Shown piece after piece: positions 3,070 to 36,870 of a stretch of DNA of 64,000 nucleotides. Below the pieces are notes generated by a model. It had not been told where the DNA came from. It saw only the letters and a list, made by a program, of their open reading frames with translations, and ran no database searches. The translations under genes and the position numbers were made by a program. Within the stretch, counting starts at the first letter, position 1. Every line of letters starts with the position of its first letter. Source of the stretch: Chryseobacterium gleum (lineage in GTDB: Bacteria; Bacteroidota; Bacteroidia; Flavobacteriales_F; PHOS-HE28); NCBI GenBank assembly GCA_945872795.1, contig CAMCAZ010000002.1, forward strand, positions 1 through 64,000, read 5' to 3'.

Positions 3070-5382
3070 ATGACAGTTAACGGGACCAACTCCCGTTATC
3101 TTGAGAAGGTGATGGTTGTATTGTTCAAAAGGTGGTTCTTGCTCGTCGGCATCGGTGTCTGTTCACCGCTGGTCATCAGTGCCCAGTTGCACCTTACCGT
3201 GCGCGATACCACCACGGGCGATGCTCTTCCGTTCGCCCACATTACGGTTGACCGTGCGGGTGAAGAGCAGTTGCACTTTGCGACCAATGCTCAGGGCAGC
3301 GTGGTTGTCCCGAGCGGTGCTTCCATCGCCTCGCCAGCCATTATCCGCATCAGTTTCGTGGGTTACGGTACCGTGACAGATACCGTTGTTCAACCCGGTG
3401 ATCGGGTCTACTTGCTGAAGCGCAAGGCGGTGGGTCTGGGTGAGGTAGTGGTTACCGGACAGTACGCGCCGACTACCGCCGATGCCGCGGTGCATCGGGT
3501 CCGTATCCTCGATCAACAGACCTTTCAGCGGATGGCCGCCAACAATCTGGGCGAAGCGTTGCGCAACGAATTGAACATCCGCATTGCGCAGGATAACGTG
3601 TTGGGTAGTTCGCTGAGCATGCAAGGCATGGGTGGCCAGAACGTGAAGATCCTGGTGGATGGCATCCCTGTGATCGGCCGGCAAGATGGGAACATCGACC
3701 TGGGCCAATTGGACCTGACCGGTATCGATCGTGCCGAGATCGTGGAAGGGCCCTTGAGCGTGAGTTATGGCACCAATGCATTGGCGGGCACCATCAATCT
3801 GATCACACGTAAAGCAGGTACGGCGGCGTCATCGATCCGGCTATCCACTTACGCCGAGCACATAGGGCGGCTCAATACCACCTTCGCTGTCACCCGTTCG
3901 TGGGGGCGCCATGGTCTACTGCTGAACGGTGGCCGGAATTTCTTTGCGGGTTGGGATCCTTCGCGACCCGGCTTACCGGAGCTTTCGCCTACTCTTGCTG
4001 ATACCAACCGCTACCAACAATGGAAGCCACGCGAGCAGTACTTCGGAAGGTTGAACTATCGCTGGAATGGCGATCGTTGGACCTTCGGATACAAAGGCGA
4101 AGTGATGCACGACATGATCCTCGCACGCGGCCTACCACGGAGTCCTTATTACGAGACCGCTTTTGACGAACGCTTCACCACCCTGCGGTTGGATCAAGCG
4201 GTCACCGCGCAAACAAGGTTCGGGAAAGCGTCCCACCTCAATGCTTTCTTGGCGCACAATCGCTATAGCCGGGTCCGCAACACCTGGTTCCGCGACCTTA
4301 CCACATTGGAAGGTGTCCTGGTGGATGCCCAGGGAACGCAGGACACGTCACGCTTCGACCTCACGAACCTGCGTGCTGTGTACGCTTCTGCTCCGGATAG
4401 TTCCAAGCTTTCCTGGGAGGGGGGGGTGGACCTGGTGCAGGAGACCGGTTCCGGGGAGCGTATCGTGAGCGGTCGCAGGGAGATCGGCGACTATGCTGGC
4501 TTCGTTAGTATGGAGTACCGCCTGACGGAGCGCGTCATCCTTAGGCCTGGGGTGCGGTATGGCTACAACACGCGGTTCGCAGCACCAGCCATTCCTTCCA
4601 TCAATCTCCGGTGGCAGCTGGGTTCTACGTTCACACTGCGCGCCTCCTATGCCGAAGGCTTTCGGGCACCTTCGCTCAAAGAGCTTTATTTCCTGTTCGT
4701 GGACGTGAACCACGATATCAACGGCAACCCTGATCTACGTGCCGAGCGTTCGCGCCATGGTACGCTTGCGCTGGCCTTTAGAAAGACCAGTAACGAACAC
4801 ACCTACACGAGCGAGATCAACGTGTTCTACAACAGGCTCCGGGATCAGATCGCTCTGGCGCAAGTAGGCCTTACCGAATGGACCTATGCCAACGTGAGCG
4901 ACTTGCGCACGGCAGGCGGAAGCACAGGCGCAGCATGGGCCAATGGGGTGTGGTCCCTTTCTGTGGGTGCAGCGATCACCGCCCGTTTGGATGATATTGC
5001 CATGGCCCATGACGAGCCTTGGTTATGGACACCGGAAATGCGGGGTAGCCTGAGCCGGCAATGGGAGAAGAGCGGGTGGTCCGCTTCGCTGTTCTGGAAG
5101 TACACAGGGCAGCAAGTGAACTACGCTCTGCTCAACAATGTTGAATTGGTGCGTGGGTACATAGCGCCTTTCCACATGGTCGATGCAACGGTAAGCAAAC
5201 GTGTCTGGGCAGGTCGTATCACCCTTTCCGGTGGCTGTAAGGATCTCTTTAACGTGCAGAATTTGAATGCCAGCTTGGCCGGGGGTGTACACAATGCTGG
5301 TGGAAATAGCGTACCCATGACCACCGGTCGAACGGCGTTCTTGCGGGTTGAATTCGATCTGATCCGGAAACGCGAAGGATGA
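3070..5382 (+). CDS. TonB-dependent outer membrane receptor (putative heme/iron receptor)
   Basis: CarboxypepD_reg-like N-terminus, plug domain (VKILVDGIPVIGRQDGNIDLGQL...IDRAEIVEGPLSVSYGTNALAGTINLIT), C-terminal beta-barrel. Lies between two HmuY-like genes. The true start may be 3112. Confidence 0.85.
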   Translation: MTVNGTNSRYLEKVMVVLFKRWFLLVGIGVCSPLVISAQLHLTVRDTTTGDALPFAHITVDRAGEEQLHFATNAQGSVVVPSGASIASPAIIRISFVGYGTVTDTVVQPGDRVYLLKRKAVGLGEVVVTGQYAPTTADAAVHRVRILDQQTFQRMAANNLGEALRNELNIRIAQDNVLGSSLSMQGMGGQNVKILVDGIPVIGRQDGNIDLGQLDLTGIDRAEIVEGPLSVSYGTNALAGTINLITRKAGTAASSIRLSTYAEHIGRLNTTFAVTRSWGRHGLLLNGGRNFFAGWDPSRPGLPELSPTLADTNRYQQWKPREQYFGRLNYRWNGDRWTFGYKGEVMHDMILARGLPRSPYYETAFDERFTTLRLDQAVTAQTRFGKASHLNAFLAHNRYSRVRNTWFRDLTTLEGVLVDAQGTQDTSRFDLTNLRAVYASAPDSSKLSWEGGVDLVQETGSGERIVSGRREIGDYAGFVSMEYRLTERVILRPGVRYGYNTRFAAPAIPSINLRWQLGSTFTLRASYAEGFRAPSLKELYFLFVDVNHDINGNPDLRAERSRHGTLALAFRKTSNEHTYTSEINVFYNRLRDQIALAQVGLTEWTYANVSDLRTAGGSTGAAWANGVWSLSVGAAITARLDDIAMAHDEPWLWTPEMRGSLSRQWEKSGWSASLFWKYTGQQVNYALLNNVELVRGYIAPFHMVDATVSKRVWAGRITLSGGCKDLFNVQNLNASLAGGVHNAGGNSVPMTTGRTAFLRVEFDLIRKREG

Positions 5383-26548: not shown

Positions 26549-27481
26549 ATGAGGGGGATAATCACAGCAGCTGTTTGCGCTCTCCTGGGCGGTGCTTCAT
26601 TCGCCCAACAGGACCCGCAGTTCACACAGTACATGTTCGATCGTATATCGATCAACCCTGGTGTGGCAGGTACGTCCGGTCAATTCTGTGCCACGGCGCT
26701 TCTGCGCCAGCAATGGAGCGGCTTTGATGGCGCGCCCAAGACCGGACTGTTGAACGCGCAGATCAACGTCAAGAAGATCAGCAGCGGGATCGGCATCTCG
26801 TTCTTCATGGATGAACTGGGCCAGCAGAAGACCTCCTTCGGGAAGCTTCACTACAGCTTCCACCGCAAGCTCGGTGCCGGAACCTTGGGCATCGGCGTCT
26901 CCTTCGGGTTCCTTTCGACCTCATTGGGCAACAATTGGATCGCGCGTCAGGCGCCATCCCTGGATGAGGCCATCCCACAGGCAGGTGCAAATGATTTCGG
27001 TCTCGACCTCGGCGGCGGCCTGTACTATGTGGCCCCGACCTTCTGGTTGGGCATCTCCAGCACCCACCTCACCGAGGTGAAGATGGATGCGGTCAGTATC
27101 CAGACCCGGCGTCACTATTTCGTCCAGGCCGGTTACGACTGGGCCATCAACGGCGACAAGAAGTACGTGCTGCAGCCCAGCGCGCTGGTGAAGAACGATG
27201 GCAGTGGTTCGACCCAGTTCGACCTCACCGCCACGTTCCTTTATAATAACACGCTTTGGATGGGCGTTTCGTACCGGACGGAGGATGCCATCGCACCCCT
27301 CATCGGTTACCAGTTGAAACCCAACGAGAAGTCCATGCTCAAGCTCGGTTACAGTTACGATGTGACCACCTCCCGGCTGAAGAACTACAGCAGCGGCAGC
27401 CATGAGGTGATGCTCAACTACTGTGTGCTCCTGGAGAAGAAGCCCGATACGCAGATCTACAGGAACGTACGTTTCCTCTAA
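26549..27481 (+). CDS. Type IX secretion system membrane protein, PorP/SprF family
   Basis: QQDPQFTQYMFDRISINPGVAGTSGQFCATALLRQQWSGFDGAPKT, characteristic of PorP/SprF. Confidence 0.93.
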   Translation: MRGIITAAVCALLGGASFAQQDPQFTQYMFDRISINPGVAGTSGQFCATALLRQQWSGFDGAPKTGLLNAQINVKKISSGIGISFFMDELGQQKTSFGKLHYSFHRKLGAGTLGIGVSFGFLSTSLGNNWIARQAPSLDEAIPQAGANDFGLDLGGGLYYVAPTFWLGISSTHLTEVKMDAVSIQTRRHYFVQAGYDWAINGDKKYVLQPSALVKNDGSGSTQFDLTATFLYNNTLWMGVSYRTEDAIAPLIGYQLKPNEKSMLKLGYSYDVTTSRLKNYSSGSHEVMLNYCVLLEKKPDTQIYRNVRFL

Positions 27482-27597: not shown

Positions 27598-28950
27598 ATG
27601 GAACGTCCCATTATATATCTCTGTGCCGTAGGCTTGCTGGCGAGCTGTGGACAGGGTGGTCAGGGGCAGCTCATTGGCGTTCAGGCCAGGCCCGGTTGGT
27701 ATCAGGTGGACCCCTACGGAATGAACTACCTCCCCATGGGTAGCTTCATCATGGGGCCCAGCGACCAGGACGTGCCTTACGCCATGGTGACCAAGAGCAA
27801 GACGGTCTCTGTACAGGCGTTTTACATTGACCAGACCGAGATCACGAATAACGAGTACCGTCAATTCGTGTTCTATGTCCGCGATTCCATCGCCAAACGT
27901 ATCCTGGGCGATGAGGATATCGGAGAACATGTGATCACCGAGGATGAGTTCGGGGAGGAGATCGACCCACCGGTGATCAACTGGCGTGAACGCATCAACT
28001 GGTACGGTGATGAGGAACGCGAGGCCTTGGCCGACATGTTCCTGAGCGAGAGCGAGCGCTTCTATCGCCGCAAGGAGATCGATACCCGCAAGCTTCAGTT
28101 CGAGTACTACTGGATCGACCTCAAGGAGGCCGCCCGCAAGGCGAACGATGCCCGTGATCTGGACCTGAGCTACACCAACGTCAAGGGTCAGAACAATGCC
28201 ATCCGTGGCCACAGCGATCGCAGCAAGTTCATCATCAAGGAGGTGATCAACGTGTACCCGGACACTTTGGTGTGGGTGCATGACTTTACCTACTCGTTCA
28301 ATGAACCGATGACCGAGAACTACTTCTGGCACCCGGCCTACGATGACTATCCGGTGGTCGGTGTGACCTGGGTGCAGGCCAATGCCTTCAACGTGTGGCG
28401 CACGCAGCTCATGAACAGCTGGCTGGAGCAGAACGGCGAGGCCTATGTGAACCGTTTCCGCCTGCCCACCGAGGCGGAGTGGGAGTACGCATCCCGCGGA
28501 GGACTGGACCAGGCTCCCTTCCCCTGGGGCGGCCCCTACGTGCGGAACCGTCAGGGTTGCTTTTTGGGCAACTTCAAACCCCTCCACGGCAACTACGTGG
28601 ATGACGGTGGATTCCACACGGTACCCGTGGACAGCTATACCCCCAACGATTACGGCTTGTACCAGATGGCCGGCAACGTGGCGGAATGGACGAGCACCGC
28701 GTTCGATGAGAGCGTGTACGACTTCGACCATGACCTGAACCCGGAATACAGCTATGACGCCTTGGCGAACGATCCGCCATCGCTCAAGCGCAAGGTGATC
28801 CGCGGTGGATCGTGGAAGGACATCGGCTACTATATGCAGACCGGTACCCGCAGCTACGAATACCAGGACACCACCAAGGCCTACATCGGCTTCCGTTCTG
28901 TAATGACCTACTTGGGTCGTGGCAAGGCGGTGGACGAAGAAGACCTCTAG
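27598..28950 (+). CDS. gldK: T9SS ring lipoprotein GldK/PorK
   Basis: FGE-sulfatase-like domain (PMGSFIMGPSDQDV...RLPTEAEWEYASRGG...GNVAEWTSTAFD...VIRGGSWKD), lipobox LLASC, followed by gldLMN. Confidence 0.95.
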   Translation: MERPIIYLCAVGLLASCGQGGQGQLIGVQARPGWYQVDPYGMNYLPMGSFIMGPSDQDVPYAMVTKSKTVSVQAFYIDQTEITNNEYRQFVFYVRDSIAKRILGDEDIGEHVITEDEFGEEIDPPVINWRERINWYGDEEREALADMFLSESERFYRRKEIDTRKLQFEYYWIDLKEAARKANDARDLDLSYTNVKGQNNAIRGHSDRSKFIIKEVINVYPDTLVWVHDFTYSFNEPMTENYFWHPAYDDYPVVGVTWVQANAFNVWRTQLMNSWLEQNGEAYVNRFRLPTEAEWEYASRGGLDQAPFPWGGPYVRNRQGCFLGNFKPLHGNYVDDGGFHTVPVDSYTPNDYGLYQMAGNVAEWTSTAFDESVYDFDHDLNPEYSYDALANDPPSLKRKVIRGGSWKDIGYYMQTGTRSYEYQDTTKAYIGFRSVMTYLGRGKAVDEEDL

Positions 28951-29041: not shown

Positions 29042-29833
29042 ATGAAGCCCGGCAGCAAGAAGTGGAAGAACTTCATGGCTAAACTGTACGGTATCGGTGC
29101 AGCGGTCGTGATCATAGGTGCCCTGTTCAAGATCCAGCACTGGCCCTTTGCCAGTCTGTTCCTGATCATCGGCCTCAGTACAGAAGCGGTCATCTTCTTC
29201 TTTTCAGCCTTCGAACCTCCCCATGAGGATCCCGATTGGAGCCTGGTGTACCCGGAGTTGGCCACGGGCGAACGTTCCGAAGGTGACGAATTCCGCAAGG
29301 ACGACAACCGCTCTATCACTGAGCAGTTGGACAACATGCTGGAAAGCGCGAAGATCGAGCCCGAGCTGATCGCCAGCCTCGGTGATGGGATGCGCTCGCT
29401 GAGCGATCAGGCCAAACAGATGGGCCAGATCACCGGTGCCGCAGCAGCCACCAACGAGTATGCTTCCAGCCTGAAGGATGCCTCGCAGAAGGTGACCTCC
29501 CTGAGCGACAGTTACACGAAAGCGAGCGAGAGCCTCGTGGGCCTGACCAACAATGTGGATGCTGGACGCAATGCCGGCGAAAGCCTGCAGAAGATGAGCC
29601 AGAACCTCAGCGCACTGAACGAGATGTATGAGATGCAGCTCCGCGGCAGCCGCGAGAAATTGGAGGCAGCCAACCAGATGTTCGAGGGAATGGGTGAAAT
29701 GCTCACCAACTTGAAGAACTCGGTGGAGGACACCAAGCGCTACAAGGAGAACATCTCTGAACTGAGCGATAACCTGGCCAAGCTCAACACGGTGTACGGC
29801 AATATGCTGAACGCCATGACCGTCAGGGGCTGA
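29042..29833 (+). CDS. gldL: T9SS inner membrane motor protein GldL/PorL
   Basis: MKPGSKKWKNFMAKLYGIGAAVVIIGALFKIQHWPFASLFLIIGLSTEAVIFFFSAFEPPHEDPDWSLVYPEL. Confidence 0.96.
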   Translation: MKPGSKKWKNFMAKLYGIGAAVVIIGALFKIQHWPFASLFLIIGLSTEAVIFFFSAFEPPHEDPDWSLVYPELATGERSEGDEFRKDDNRSITEQLDNMLESAKIEPELIASLGDGMRSLSDQAKQMGQITGAAAATNEYASSLKDASQKVTSLSDSYTKASESLVGLTNNVDAGRNAGESLQKMSQNLSALNEMYEMQLRGSREKLEAANQMFEGMGEMLTNLKNSVEDTKRYKENISELSDNLAKLNTVYGNMLNAMTVRG

Positions 29834-32571: not shown

Positions 32572-32712
32572 AGATATGCGGCCATCCTGAAGGTTGGGAA
32601 CGCCATGGACCGGAGCACCGACGAATACCAGATCGGACTGGATGCACTGCTGGAGGCCGAGGGTGTCCGAGAGCAGCTCTAGTTGCTCCACTTCGACCTG
32701 TGGAACTACTGA
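32572..32712 (+). pseudogene. gldN/gldO 3'-end remnant
   Basis: Translation RYAAILKVGNAMDRSTDEYQIGLDALLEAEGVREQL*LLHFDLWNY* aligns to the GldN C-terminus SYITKWSNVYDRGINQYKTGLNALLEGEEIKQQLFEFEHDLWNF*. Internal TAG; no gldN N-terminus. Confidence 0.85.
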
Positions 32713-32739: not shown

Positions 32740-32747
32740 TACTTTTG
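32740..32747 (+). promoter_or_regulatory. Bacteroidota-type -7 motif TACTTTTG upstream of the ABC-F gene
   Basis: TACTTTTGCGGGC, 34 bp before the ATG at 32782. Confidence 0.55.
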
Positions 32748-32781: not shown

Positions 32782-34695
32782 ATGATCACAGTACAAGGCC
32801 TTACCCTGCATTTCGGTCAACGGCCGATGTTCGACGACATCTCCTTCTTCATCGGAAGCGAGGACCGCATCGGCCTGGTGGGCCGCAATGGTGCCGGCAA
32901 GAGCACGCTGCTGAAGATCATGGCGGGCCAGCAGCCCTTCGACAAGGGCACCATCGGGAAACCGAAGGAGCTGACCATGGGCTATCTGCCCCAGGAAATG
33001 GCCCACAACCTGGCCCTGACCCCCTGGCAGGTGGCGGAGAAGGCCTTCGAGGAGGCCATGACCCTCAACGCTTCCCTGGACCGCATCGAGCAGGACCTGC
33101 AAAAGGCCACCACCGACGAGGAGGCCATCGAGCTGGCCACCCTGCTGGCCCACGCCCATGAGCGCCTCAATGCCATCGGTGCCGCCGACCATGACATGCA
33201 GATCGAGCGCATGCTCAAGGGCATCGGCTTCATCGAGAAGGACATGCACCGCCTGATGAGCGAGCTCAGCGGTGGATGGCGCATGCGCGCCGAGCTGGCC
33301 CGCATCCTCCTCATGCAGCCCGACCTGCTGCTGCTGGACGAGCCCACCAACCACCTCGATCTGCCCGCCATCCAGTGGCTGGAGGACCTGCTCCGTTCCT
33401 ACCCGGCAGCGCTGGTGCTCATCTCACACGACAAGACCTTCCTCGATCGCCTGACGAAGCGCACGCTGGAAGTGAGCAACGGCAAGATCATCGACCGCAA
33501 GGTGCCCTGGAGCCAATACGTGGAACTGCGCAAGATCGAGCGCGAGCAGCAGTCCGCAGCGGCCAAGGAGCAGCAGCGCTACATCGACGAGACCGAGAAG
33601 CTCATCAACAAGTTCCGGGCGAAGGCCAGCAAGGCATCCTTCGCGCAGAGCCTGATCACGAAGCTGGAGAAGCTGGACCGCATTGAGGTGGAGGACGAGG
33701 ACCTGCGCAAGATGCTGGTGAAATTCCCGCCCGCCCCCAACTCCGGGAAGATCGTCTGCGAAGTGAAGGGCGTGAGCAAGGCCTACGGCGACAAGCACAT
33801 CTTCAGCAACGCCGAACTGACCCTGGCCAAGGGCGAGCACCTGGCCCTGGTGGGTGCCAACGGGACGGGAAAGTCCACCCTGGTGCGCATGATCATGGGC
33901 GAGGAACCCTATGAGGGAGAGATCAAGCTGGGCCACAACGTGATCATCGGCTACTACGCGCAGGACATGCCCGAGCGCATGACGCCGCAACGTACCGTGA
34001 TCGAAACCGCCGAGGAAGCGGCCAGCGAGGACAACCGTGTGCGGGTGCGTGCCATGCTCGGCGCGTTCATGTTCAGCGGTGAGGATGTGGACAAGAAGGT
34101 GAAGGTGTTGAGCGGCGGTGAGCGCGCGCGCCTGGCCCTGTGCTGCATGCTGCTCAAGCCTCTGAACTTCCTCATCCTGGACGAACCCACGCACCACCTG
34201 GACATCCAGAGCAAGGATGTGCTGAAGGAGGCGCTCAAGAACTACGAAGGCACCTTCCTGCTGGTGAGCCACGACCGTGACTTCCTCACCGGGCTCACCC
34301 ATCGCCTGTTGGAGCTCGACGATCTCCGGATCCGCGACCAGCACATGGACATCCTGGAACTGATCGAGAAACGCAAGGCCCTGCAGGGCGCGGACATCGG
34401 CAAGTCATCCGCACGGGTGAAGGAGGAGAAGGCCGCGAAGGGCAGTGATCAGCGCGACAAGCGCGACCGCGAAAAGGACAAGCGCCGCGTGCAGAACCAG
34501 GTGGAACGCCTGGAGAAGCAGCTCGCCGAACTGGAGGCTGAGGAGAAGGCATTGCAGGCCGTGGTCCTGAAAGGTGGCCGCTCCGACGAGGAGATGCAGA
34601 AGGGCTACACGCAGTTGGGCGACCTGGCCAAACGCATCGCCTCCGTCATGGAGGAGTGGGAGCGCACTTCCGCCCAGCTGCAGGAGCTCGCGTAG
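32782..34695 (+). CDS. ABC-F family ATP-binding cassette protein
   Basis: Two ABC cassettes (GRNGAGKST/LSGGWRMRAELARIL/LLLDEPTNHLD and GANGTGKST/LSGGERARLALCCML/LILDEPTHHLD), inter-domain linker, no TM region. Confidence 0.95.
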   Translation: MITVQGLTLHFGQRPMFDDISFFIGSEDRIGLVGRNGAGKSTLLKIMAGQQPFDKGTIGKPKELTMGYLPQEMAHNLALTPWQVAEKAFEEAMTLNASLDRIEQDLQKATTDEEAIELATLLAHAHERLNAIGAADHDMQIERMLKGIGFIEKDMHRLMSELSGGWRMRAELARILLMQPDLLLLDEPTNHLDLPAIQWLEDLLRSYPAALVLISHDKTFLDRLTKRTLEVSNGKIIDRKVPWSQYVELRKIEREQQSAAAKEQQRYIDETEKLINKFRAKASKASFAQSLITKLEKLDRIEVEDEDLRKMLVKFPPAPNSGKIVCEVKGVSKAYGDKHIFSNAELTLAKGEHLALVGANGTGKSTLVRMIMGEEPYEGEIKLGHNVIIGYYAQDMPERMTPQRTVIETAEEAASEDNRVRVRAMLGAFMFSGEDVDKKVKVLSGGERARLALCCMLLKPLNFLILDEPTHHLDIQSKDVLKEALKNYEGTFLLVSHDRDFLTGLTHRLLELDDLRIRDQHMDILELIEKRKALQGADIGKSSARVKEEKAAKGSDQRDKRDREKDKRRVQNQVERLEKQLAELEAEEKALQAVVLKGGRSDEEMQKGYTQLGDLAKRIASVMEEWERTSAQLQELA

Positions 34696-34778: not shown

Positions 34779-36401
34779 ATGGCCAGTGCGCAGATGCCTC
34801 CCCGGCAGAAGATGATCAACATGATGTACCTCGTGCTCACCGCCATGCTGGCGATGAACGTGAGCAAGGAGGTGCTGGACGCGTTCGCCATCATGGACGC
34901 CGACCTCGTACGCAGCGAACGGGCGCATGCGCAACGCTCCCAGCTGGAATATGCCGTGTTCGCGGATGCCGCAGAACGCTTCCCGGAGAAGTTCGGAGCC
35001 ACGCACGCCCATGCCTTGAGGGTGCAGGCGCAGGCGGATTCCCTGGTGCGGGCCATCGACCGGATCAAGGGCGAGGCGATGGCCGAAGCCGATGGCATCC
35101 CCCTGCATGCCCTGCGTGGAGCGGATGCACAGGGTGGCGATACCCTGCGCGCCCTGATGGCCTTGGAGGCGAAGGATGATCGCGAGGTGCTCACCACCCG
35201 CATGATCGGCAGCGAACCCTCCTCCCCGCACCGGGCGGCGAACGGTGCGTATGACCTGAAGGTCCGGATCGGGCAGTTCCGCGATTCGTTGAAGAGCCTC
35301 GTGGGAAGCCGTGGTCCCGAGCTGGCGGCCTCACTGGACCTCCTCTTCGACCTGCAGGACCGGCGGGATGCCTCCGGCACGATGAACAACTGGGAGTCCA
35401 TCAACTTCTATGATGTGCCGCTGGCCGCCGGGGTGGCCACCCTGTCCAAGCTGCAGGCCGATATCCGCAGCGCGGAGAACGATGTGGTGCGGTGGTTGTA
35501 CCGTTCCGTGGAATCCGCGGACTACAAGTTCGGGACGCTGACCACGGCCGTGATCCCCCAGAGCAACCTGGTGATGGTGGGCGATTCGTTCCGGGCCGAT
35601 GTCTTCCTCGCGGCCTATGATCCACGCAACGCGCCGCTGGTGACAGTGAACGGTGGGGCACCGCTGCCCATCGGCACGGATGGCAAGGCGAAGCTGCGTG
35701 CCCGGGCCGATCGTGTGGGCGAGCATCTGGTGGAAGGCGTGATCCGCTTCGAAGGTCCGAAGGGCACCGAGGAGATCCCCTACTCCGTGTCGTACCAGGT
35801 CATGGCGCCGCTGCTCGTGGCCTCACCTACCAAGATGAACGTGCTGTACCGCGGCGTGGAGAACCCCATCGACCTTTCGGTTCCGGGCGTGCCGGCCGAA
35901 CAGGTGCAGGCATCCATCTCCAGCGGTCGCATCGTGCGGAATGGTAATTCCTGGGTGGCCAGTGGCATGACCGCCAGCACGGCCGAGGTGTTCGCCACGG
36001 TCACCATGCCCGATGGTTCCTCGCGCAGGATCGGCCCCGTCGTGTTCCGGGTGAAGGACCTGCCTGCCCCCACCGCCTATATCGCCGGGCTGGACCCCAC
36101 GGATACCAAGGCGCTCCGGTCGAAGCTGACCGCTTCCACCGGCATCGTGGCCAAGCCCATCGGGTCGGAGTTCGGTGATCCCTGGAAGGTCAAACGCTTC
36201 CAGTTGTCCATCGTGCGCCGGGGCGGTATGCCCGTCTTCCTCGATGCCACGGGAAATGCCTTCACGCATGAGATGCGGGAGGCCCTGAAGGCGCTTCGGC
36301 CGGGTGATCAGGTCTACGTGGAGAATATCCGGGGACAGCTGGCCAACGGCCAGGGACCGGTACGTGAGCTGGCGCCGATCGCAGTAAAGGTGCTTCCCTG
36401 A
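34779..36401 (+). CDS. Second GldM/PorM paralogue
   Basis: MASAQMPPRQKMINMMYLVLTAMLAMNVSKEVLDAF, DRRDASGTMNNWESINFYDVPLAAGVATLSKLQADIRSAENDVVRWL and SPTKMNVLYRGVENPIDLSVPG align with GldM copy 1. Start set at 34779. Confidence 0.92.
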   Translation: MASAQMPPRQKMINMMYLVLTAMLAMNVSKEVLDAFAIMDADLVRSERAHAQRSQLEYAVFADAAERFPEKFGATHAHALRVQAQADSLVRAIDRIKGEAMAEADGIPLHALRGADAQGGDTLRALMALEAKDDREVLTTRMIGSEPSSPHRAANGAYDLKVRIGQFRDSLKSLVGSRGPELAASLDLLFDLQDRRDASGTMNNWESINFYDVPLAAGVATLSKLQADIRSAENDVVRWLYRSVESADYKFGTLTTAVIPQSNLVMVGDSFRADVFLAAYDPRNAPLVTVNGGAPLPIGTDGKAKLRARADRVGEHLVEGVIRFEGPKGTEEIPYSVSYQVMAPLLVASPTKMNVLYRGVENPIDLSVPGVPAEQVQASISSGRIVRNGNSWVASGMTASTAEVFATVTMPDGSSRRIGPVVFRVKDLPAPTAYIAGLDPTDTKALRSKLTASTGIVAKPIGSEFGDPWKVKRFQLSIVRRGGMPVFLDATGNAFTHEMREALKALRPGDQVYVENIRGQLANGQGPVRELAPIAVKVLP

Positions 36402-36449: not shown

Positions 36450-36522
36450 TGCGGGGTGGAGCAGATGGTAGCTCGTCGGGCTCATAACCCGAAGGCCGCA
36501 GGTTCGAGTCCTGCCCCCGCTA
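36450..36522 (+). tRNA. tRNA-fMet (CAT), initiator
   Basis: TGCGGGG/CCCCGCT acceptor with unpaired 1-72, D stem GAGC/GCTC, anticodon arm TCGGG-CTCATAA-CCCGA (three G:C pairs), T arm GCAGG-TTCGAGT-CCTGC. CCA not encoded. Confidence 0.95.
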
Positions 36523-36525
36523 CGA

Positions 36526-36561: not shown

Positions 36562-36807
36562 ATGCCTCATTGGGTGTACGCGCTGTACTCACCTGTCCAC
36601 GACAAGATCTACGTGGTCGAGACCAGTGATCTGGACGACCGTTACAGGTCGCACAATGAACTGGCCACGAAAGGCTGGACGGTGCACTACCGCCCCTGGG
36701 TCATCCTCTACAAGGAAGAATGTATTGACCGAAAAACCGCTCGAACAAGGGAACGACAGCTCAAGTCCGGATCAGGTCGGGAATTCCTTCGCTCCCTGTT
36801 GGGGTAG
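36562..36807 (+). CDS. Small GIY-YIG nuclease family protein
   Basis: MPHWVYALYSPVHDKIYVVETSDLDDRYRSHN...GWTVHYRPWVILYKEECIDRKTARTRERQLKSGSGREFLRSLLG. Confidence 0.85.
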   Translation: MPHWVYALYSPVHDKIYVVETSDLDDRYRSHNELATKGWTVHYRPWVILYKEECIDRKTARTRERQLKSGSGREFLRSLLG

Positions 36808-36864
36808 CTCGTCGGGCTCATATCCGCCGTACGGCGGACGCAGGTCCGGGTCCTGCCCCCGCTA
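36801..36864 (+). pseudogene. Degenerate tRNA-fMet copy (anticodon-loop to 3' end)
   Basis: GGTAGCTCGTCGGGCTCATA and CGCAGGTCCGGGTCCTGCCCCCGCTACGA match the intact tRNA. The 5' acceptor half is missing, and the 3' anticodon strand is replaced by a palindrome. Confidence 0.85.
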
Positions 36865-36870
36865 CGAGCG

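Follow-up and report, generated by a model that had tools for sequence, protein, structure and literature searches.

What does a genome that encodes one GldL need a second GldM for, and why is that second copy placed outside the gldKLMN operon? In the known motor, GldL and GldM/PorM make up a proton-driven complex of 5:2 stoichiometry, and in the window (the whole stretch of 64,000 nucleotides analysed here) a second gldM begins 84 bp 3' of an ABC-F gene and lies just upstream of a tRNA-Met (Table 1). Below, M1 is the operonic GldM1 and M2 is GldM2, D1 to D4 are the GldM domains, N1, N2 and N3 are the GldN classes, and M2+ and M2- are genomes with and without M2. The answer that we favor, with a probability of roughly one half, is that M2 draws on the single GldL to build motors, by itself or together with M1, and that its exchangeable tip determines what such a motor grips.

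Table 1. Features of the gldM2 locus, with their positions in the window.
Feature	Position	Strand	Basis
porP/sprF-like gene	26549..27481	+	Pfam, NCBIfam
gldK	27598..28950	+	NCBIfam TIGR03525
gldL, sole full GldL in the genome; its ORF as listed starts upstream, at GTG 28919	29042..29833	+	NCBIfam, genome search
gldM1, operonic GldM, 546 aa	29889..31529	+	Pfam, NCBIfam, genome search, structure-element comparison
gldN1, sole intact gldN of the genome	31554..32414	+	Pfam, genome search
3' relic of an N2-class gldN, in-frame stop TAG 32680-32682	32578..32712	+	tblastn E=5.5e-12, alignment
TACTTTTG, -7-like motif, candidate promoter of abcF-gldM2, upstream of abcF	32740..32747	+	Pattern scan, 16 loci; inference
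ABC-F ATPase gene (abcF), ancestral neighbor, probably cotranscribed with gldM2	32782..34695	+	Pfam, synteny, promoter-pattern scan
gldM2, complete second GldM/PorM, 540 aa	34779..36401	+	Pfam, NCBIfam, BLASTP to M1, tree, AlphaFold2 model
M2 motor segment, aa 1-36, TM helix, Arg9/Tyr17/Glu31	34779..34886	+	Arg9, Tyr17 invariant in 61 GldM; alignment of N-termini
M2 D4, aa 429-538, hypervariable exchanged tip	36063..36392	+	Pfam GldM_4th; domain rates, tree conflict
tRNA-Met, right boundary of the locus, conserved in M2+ and most M2- genomes	36450..36523	+	tRNA and synteny comparison

The first-pass annotation had recognized a complete second GldM in this gene, and this is confirmed. The reading frame is undamaged and its ATG is at the start position of the M2 orthologues, all four Pfam GldM domains are matched above their cutoffs, the NCBIfam model TIGR03517 gives 322 bits (cutoff 180; 331 bits for M1), and M2 aligns with M1 over its full length at 38% identity (BLASTP, E=4e-127). 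The AlphaFold2 model displays the full GldM architecture with a mean pLDDT of 85, most of D4 being at about 90 or higher, and the top structural and sequence matches are solved PorM/GldM structures (Foldseek against the PDB). The window genome (3.3 Mb, 102 contigs, completeness rated 100%) encodes exactly these two GldMs and one GldL. The claim that M2 is clearly diverged between its motor segment and its periplasmic signatures needs a refinement: identity to the M1 of the same genome is about 37-44% across D1-D3, and 27-39% for D4 (which rules out that the M2 D4 derived from M1), but M2 orthologues diverge from one another mainly in D4. A different periplasmic reach, also suggested for M2, found no support and a different shaft length is ruled out, since M1 and M2 are of nearly equal length and have their predicted secondary-structure elements in the same order. 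M2 thus shares its family, four domains, Arg9/Tyr17 TM segment and length with the GldM/PorM of the gldKLMN operon (F. johnsoniae GldM, P. gingivalis PorM; PDB 6YS8, 6EY4, 7CMG, 7SAU), but it is extra-operonic, has no GldL of its own and bears a D4 that is hypervariable and exchanged rather than conserved. By every sequence feature examined M2 is a GldM, and its novelty would lie in this variable, exchanged D4.

Gene order in the genus is porP-gldK-gldL-gldM1-gldN1-[gldN2]-[gldN3]-abcF-gldM2-tRNA-Met-era-der. A TANNTTTG motif, which is typical of Bacteroidota promoters, precedes abcF in most loci scanned, and none was seen in the abcF-gldM2 gap of the 13 loci examined, so that gldM2 is probably on one transcript with abcF. 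In one MAG (UBA2426, L075 3480-9000), abcF is in three pieces and more than 3 kb from gldM2, possibly by an assembly error; the very close relative G010 differs in this. On the right side of the window locus, an 81-aa GIY-YIG ORF (36562-36807, PF01541) comes after the tRNA-Met, and behind it the 3' half of the tRNA recurs in part (about 36805-36867); the segment 36450-36867 resembles a mobile GIY-YIG element associated with the tRNA.

Of the 45 genomes of the genus (nearly all genomes compared were MAGs), 22 have M2 or a part of it at a contig end, always between abcF and tRNA-Met/era. Seventeen M2- genomes have the gldN-abcF-era stretch intact, and a search between abcF and era in these 17 recovered no recognizable M2 remnant. 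The M2s form one clade (SH-aLRT 100), whose sister group comprises all M1s of the genus (support 92). This points to an old duplication and several subsequent losses; gain and loss amount to four to five changes on a GldK+ABC-F+Era+Der tree. M2 is therefore an old duplicate, vertically inherited from the base of the genus and lost several times. Recent horizontal transfer is ruled out, since M2 is monophyletic, sister to the M1s of the genus and syntenic.

The gldN relic reported between gldN1 and abcF is real. It reads AAILKVGNAMDRSTDEYQIGLDALLEAEGVREQL*LLHFDLWNY* (asterisks being stops) and corresponds to the final ~44 codons of a gldN, interrupted by an in-frame stop, so that the 3' end alone is left and no intact frame; it is nearer to the diverged N2 class of relatives (best L038_N2) than to gldN1. 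Extra gldN copies are exclusive to M2+ genomes (13/21 scorable M2+ vs 0/17 confirmed M2-, Fisher 6e-5), an association that keeps a constant direction with phylogenetically independent pairs, which are too few for significance. Eight M2+ genomes have a single gldN, part of the extra copies are later or recent tandem duplicates (L052, L043), and GldN2/N3 evolve fast, with 44-55% mean identity inside their classes vs 78% for N1. The idea of an old partial duplication of gldMN split around the ABC-F gene is retained in part: M2 is an old duplicate and extra gldN copies are associated with it, but the order gldN-abcF-tRNA-era also exists in M2- relatives, so that M2 occupies a separate position (M1-N1-[N2]-[N3]-abcF-M2), and some gldN copies are later tandems. 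With gldN and abcF adjacent in M2- genomes as well, a single duplication split by abcF is possible, not established. A comparable duplicated T9SS core subunit beside the operon is GldO of F. johnsoniae, a partly redundant GldN paralogue encoded next to gldN (PMC9127263), which the gldN2/N3 of the genus resemble; however, GldO is a ring subunit, whereas here the shaft is duplicated and the extra gldN of the window is a relic.

The N-terminal TM/motor segment was said to be kept in M2, and it is, both Arg9 and Tyr17 being present; they are invariant in 61 aligned GldMs, among them all M2s used. In the operonic motor, GldM Arg9 pairs with GldL Glu49 (PMC12239597), and a role of GldM Tyr17 has been described (PMC9127263). 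A second full-length GldL is absent from every genome of the genus searched, which yielded only short GldL_N-like pieces elsewhere, so that with a single GldL in the genome any M2 motor must share it with M1. Two small membrane proteins of the window genome (C55; L152 1132-1647 and 1817-2230) carry GldL N-terminal-like FKIxHWP repeats, with PF22827 in the first; weak matches to such proteins occur in many M2+ genomes and few M2- genomes (G018). Closer M2 pairs mostly have dN/dS values of 0.07-0.19, i.e., in the M1 range or moderately above, except for G009-G010 (0.36, caused by D4), and the most distant pairs reach 0.42-0.48, where M1 values are 0.32-0.57, all of these ratios being rough because many dS values are near saturation. 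No M2 is frameshifted among intact loci. As judged from these comparisons, M2 is under purifying selection and selectively maintained. A recent transfer, a disrupted TM helix and relaxed selection, which the first-pass annotation had itself named as arguments against its reading, were thus not encountered: M2 is old and monophyletic, its motor segment is intact, and selection on it is purifying.

D4 behaves differently in the two proteins. In PorM, D4 alone suffices for PorN binding (PMC5790014), and among the periplasmic domains of the M1s of the genus D4 is conserved best (mean identity of 82% vs 77-79% in D2-D3); in the same genomes, the M2 D4 is the least conserved domain (46% vs 66-76% in D1-D3). 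In sliding blocks of 105 residues, the ratio of M2 to M1 divergence is 0.99-1.41 outside D4 and 2.3-2.4 in D4. Between close pairs of the same D4 type, dN/dS of the M2 D4 is about 0.10-0.15, from which this domain appears functional.

Replacement of the domain as a unit is best seen in G009 and G010, where M2 identity falls from 97% in D1-D3 to 39% in D4, the drop being at the D3/D4 border (FRVKDLPPP). At the DNA level, identity is mostly 96-98% in abcF and the D1-D3 part of gldM2, about 75-90% in the flanking operon, about 50% in D4 and about 80% in era. Comparison of L034 (5958-9200) with L035 delimits abcF and gldM2 D1-D3 as a recent recombination tract, mostly 96-98% identical in nucleotides between two species otherwise at about 75-90%. 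The D4 data reject the D1-3 clades (G009,G010), (BAC33,G012,USDE) and larger ones with p-AU values of 5e-5 to 4e-62 (including 4e-6 and 1e-16), which are only indicative because the clades were picked after the trees had been seen, and the D1-3 data in turn reject the D4 clades. In the MAG ACE_BAC33 (L063; one locus, on one 4.4-kb contig), M2 ends in a D4 of the G010 type and, about 100 bp on, past a hairpin-bearing spacer, follows the 3' half of another D4 (1370-1519; 76-78% identical to relatives, i.e., 76% in protein to MAG317 and 78% in nucleotides to L056), then the native tail and tRNA-Met. This downstream fragment represents an old, displaced tip. At least in part, then, the divergence of the M2 D4 is due to whole-domain replacement. 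No stand-alone donor D4 cassette was found in the genus other than the fragment of L063 and a D3-D4 protein of G005 with a signal peptide, and the donors are presumably the M2s of other strains. The G005 protein (L187, about 3492-4140, minus strand; ~220 aa) joins a signal peptide to GldM D3-D4 with the motor part absent, i.e., it is a free-standing GldM tip. As a control for recombination in M1, some M1 clades also conflict between D4 and D1-3 (p 0.002-0.13), the M1 D4s being nonetheless 87-99% alike in the pairs compared; exchange as such is therefore not unique to M2, and what is unusual is how different the swapped M2 D4s are.

We infer from the above how M2 may work. With its TM engine and D1-D3 rod conserved, M2 would most likely assemble with the single GldL, as a homodimer or with M1, and this assembly would be a proton-driven motor in which gldM2 provides a working second T9SS motor shaft. 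The M2 D4, counterpart of the PorN/PorK-binding domain of PorM, would have been freed from the strict fit seen in M1, and its diversification would owe in part to recombination at the D3/D4 border that replaces the whole domain. M2 may in this way connect one and the same motor with outer partners that vary: a GldN of another class (N2/N3) in genomes that have one, or else a different partner in the periplasm or outer membrane. GldN2/N3 are candidate partners of the M2 D4, but GldN2 is not clearly the partner, as M2 is present in the eight genomes with one gldN and D4 does not track N2: D4 type is independent of N2 presence, and M2-D4 distances do not correlate with those of N2 (r=0.07, seven genomes).

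The same lack of tracking of N2, together with a D4 that fits no conserved partner, would be expected if M2 were an idle or tuning subunit of GldL pentamers, mainly in M1/M2 heterodimers, whose tip does not grip the GldK/N ring and which leaves fewer or adjusted productive motors; D4 would then vary because no precise binding is required. The GldL common to M1 and M2, the retained motor residues and the asymmetrical engagement of the GldM dimer (PMC12239597) also fit such a role. We nevertheless consider it rather improbable, given the purifying selection on D4 between close same-type pairs and a domain that is predicted to be well folded and is swapped for other whole D4s, not lost.

Horizontally replaced and deeply divergent D4 types in a gene that is repeatedly lost also recall conflict, and a phage, bacteriocin or contact-delivered toxin might use the exposed end of M2, D4 being swapped to escape it. 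However, D4 faces the periplasm, no antagonist is known, and same-type pairs indicate purifying rather than positive selection, which makes this scenario unlikely. Little credit can be given either to M2 as an old redundant copy in slow decay, starting with D4, in which variability would result from relaxed selection and ordinary recombination. Repeated loss of M2 and N2 across the genus, the gldN relic and the recombination of M1 agree with it, but M2 diverges like M1 outside D4, close-pair dN/dS is low, intact loci hold no frameshifted M2, and D4 is replaced rather than eroded. That the swaps are chimaeras of MAG assembly, as the prevalence of MAGs among the loci and the short L063 contig might suggest, is very improbable, since the G010 genome is a single contig and its D4 is met again in another, separate MAG (L075), and the tree conflict spans several independent assemblies with intact frames.

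Second GldMs also exist beyond the genus, about 7/23 family representatives outside it having two full-length GldMs per genome. In an unrelated family (f9), the second GldM, which stems from a separate duplication according to the tree and adjoins tex where its flank is visible (L150, L194), has identities of 68% in D1, 78% in D2, 66% in D3 and 44% in D4, compared with 81% in the D4 of its operonic counterpart. In another family (f2), whose genomes are large, at least five genera have a second gldM shortly downstream of the first (L143 4477-8966; G076, G082, G083, G085), with gldN between them in G035. The second copy is weaker in D3-D4 (34% vs 56-60%), a figure based on few sequences with three of five second copies extracted; this is a separate, conserved GldM pair with a D4 trend in the same direction as M2, though weaker. 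A further family (f12) is represented by one genome and thus provides no third replicate. One operonic-type GldM of f9 (L191, G069) is only 32% identical to its congeners in D1 and 74-85% in D2-D4, so that D1 also appears replaceable as a unit.

Additional GldM copies have been recorded before, as extra porM orthologues of F. johnsoniae are mentioned (PMC5790014) and are like M2 in this respect, but we found no study of a second GldM, its domains, its tips or their exchange in the literature searched (subscription papers being outside the scope of the search). A likeness to M1/M2 in another system is seen in Myxococcus, where AglQ and AglS are two MotB-like shafts that go with a single AglR and might be homo- or heterodimers (PMC9389320): two inner subunits have one common outer subunit, although AglQ/AglS belong to another family, bind peptidoglycan, and are not said to have an exchanged tip in that paper. 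The exchange genetics alone resembles the orphan C-terminal cassettes of CDI/Rhs systems, L063 likewise having a new C-terminal cassette and a displaced old 3' end downstream; M2, however, is no secreted effector, has no toxin or immunity gene, and its D4 is a Pfam GldM_4th domain followed by a tRNA gene.

The T9SS motor shaft is commonly regarded as a single, conserved component. A second shaft that is maintained and has a variable, exchanged tip, a pattern repeated in an independent lineage, suggests that the driven target can change while the engine remains constant. Non-operonic GldM paralogues across Bacteroidota might even, as we tentatively propose, form a general class of retargetable shafts, in which engine and rod are conserved and the tip is a fast-exchanging specificity module. 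If such a class exists, one type of GldL motor would drive different outer-membrane machinery in different strains. The tips of G009 and G010 are natural swaps, usable to learn which part of GldM sets the coupling to the GldK/N ring in the rotary T9SS model.
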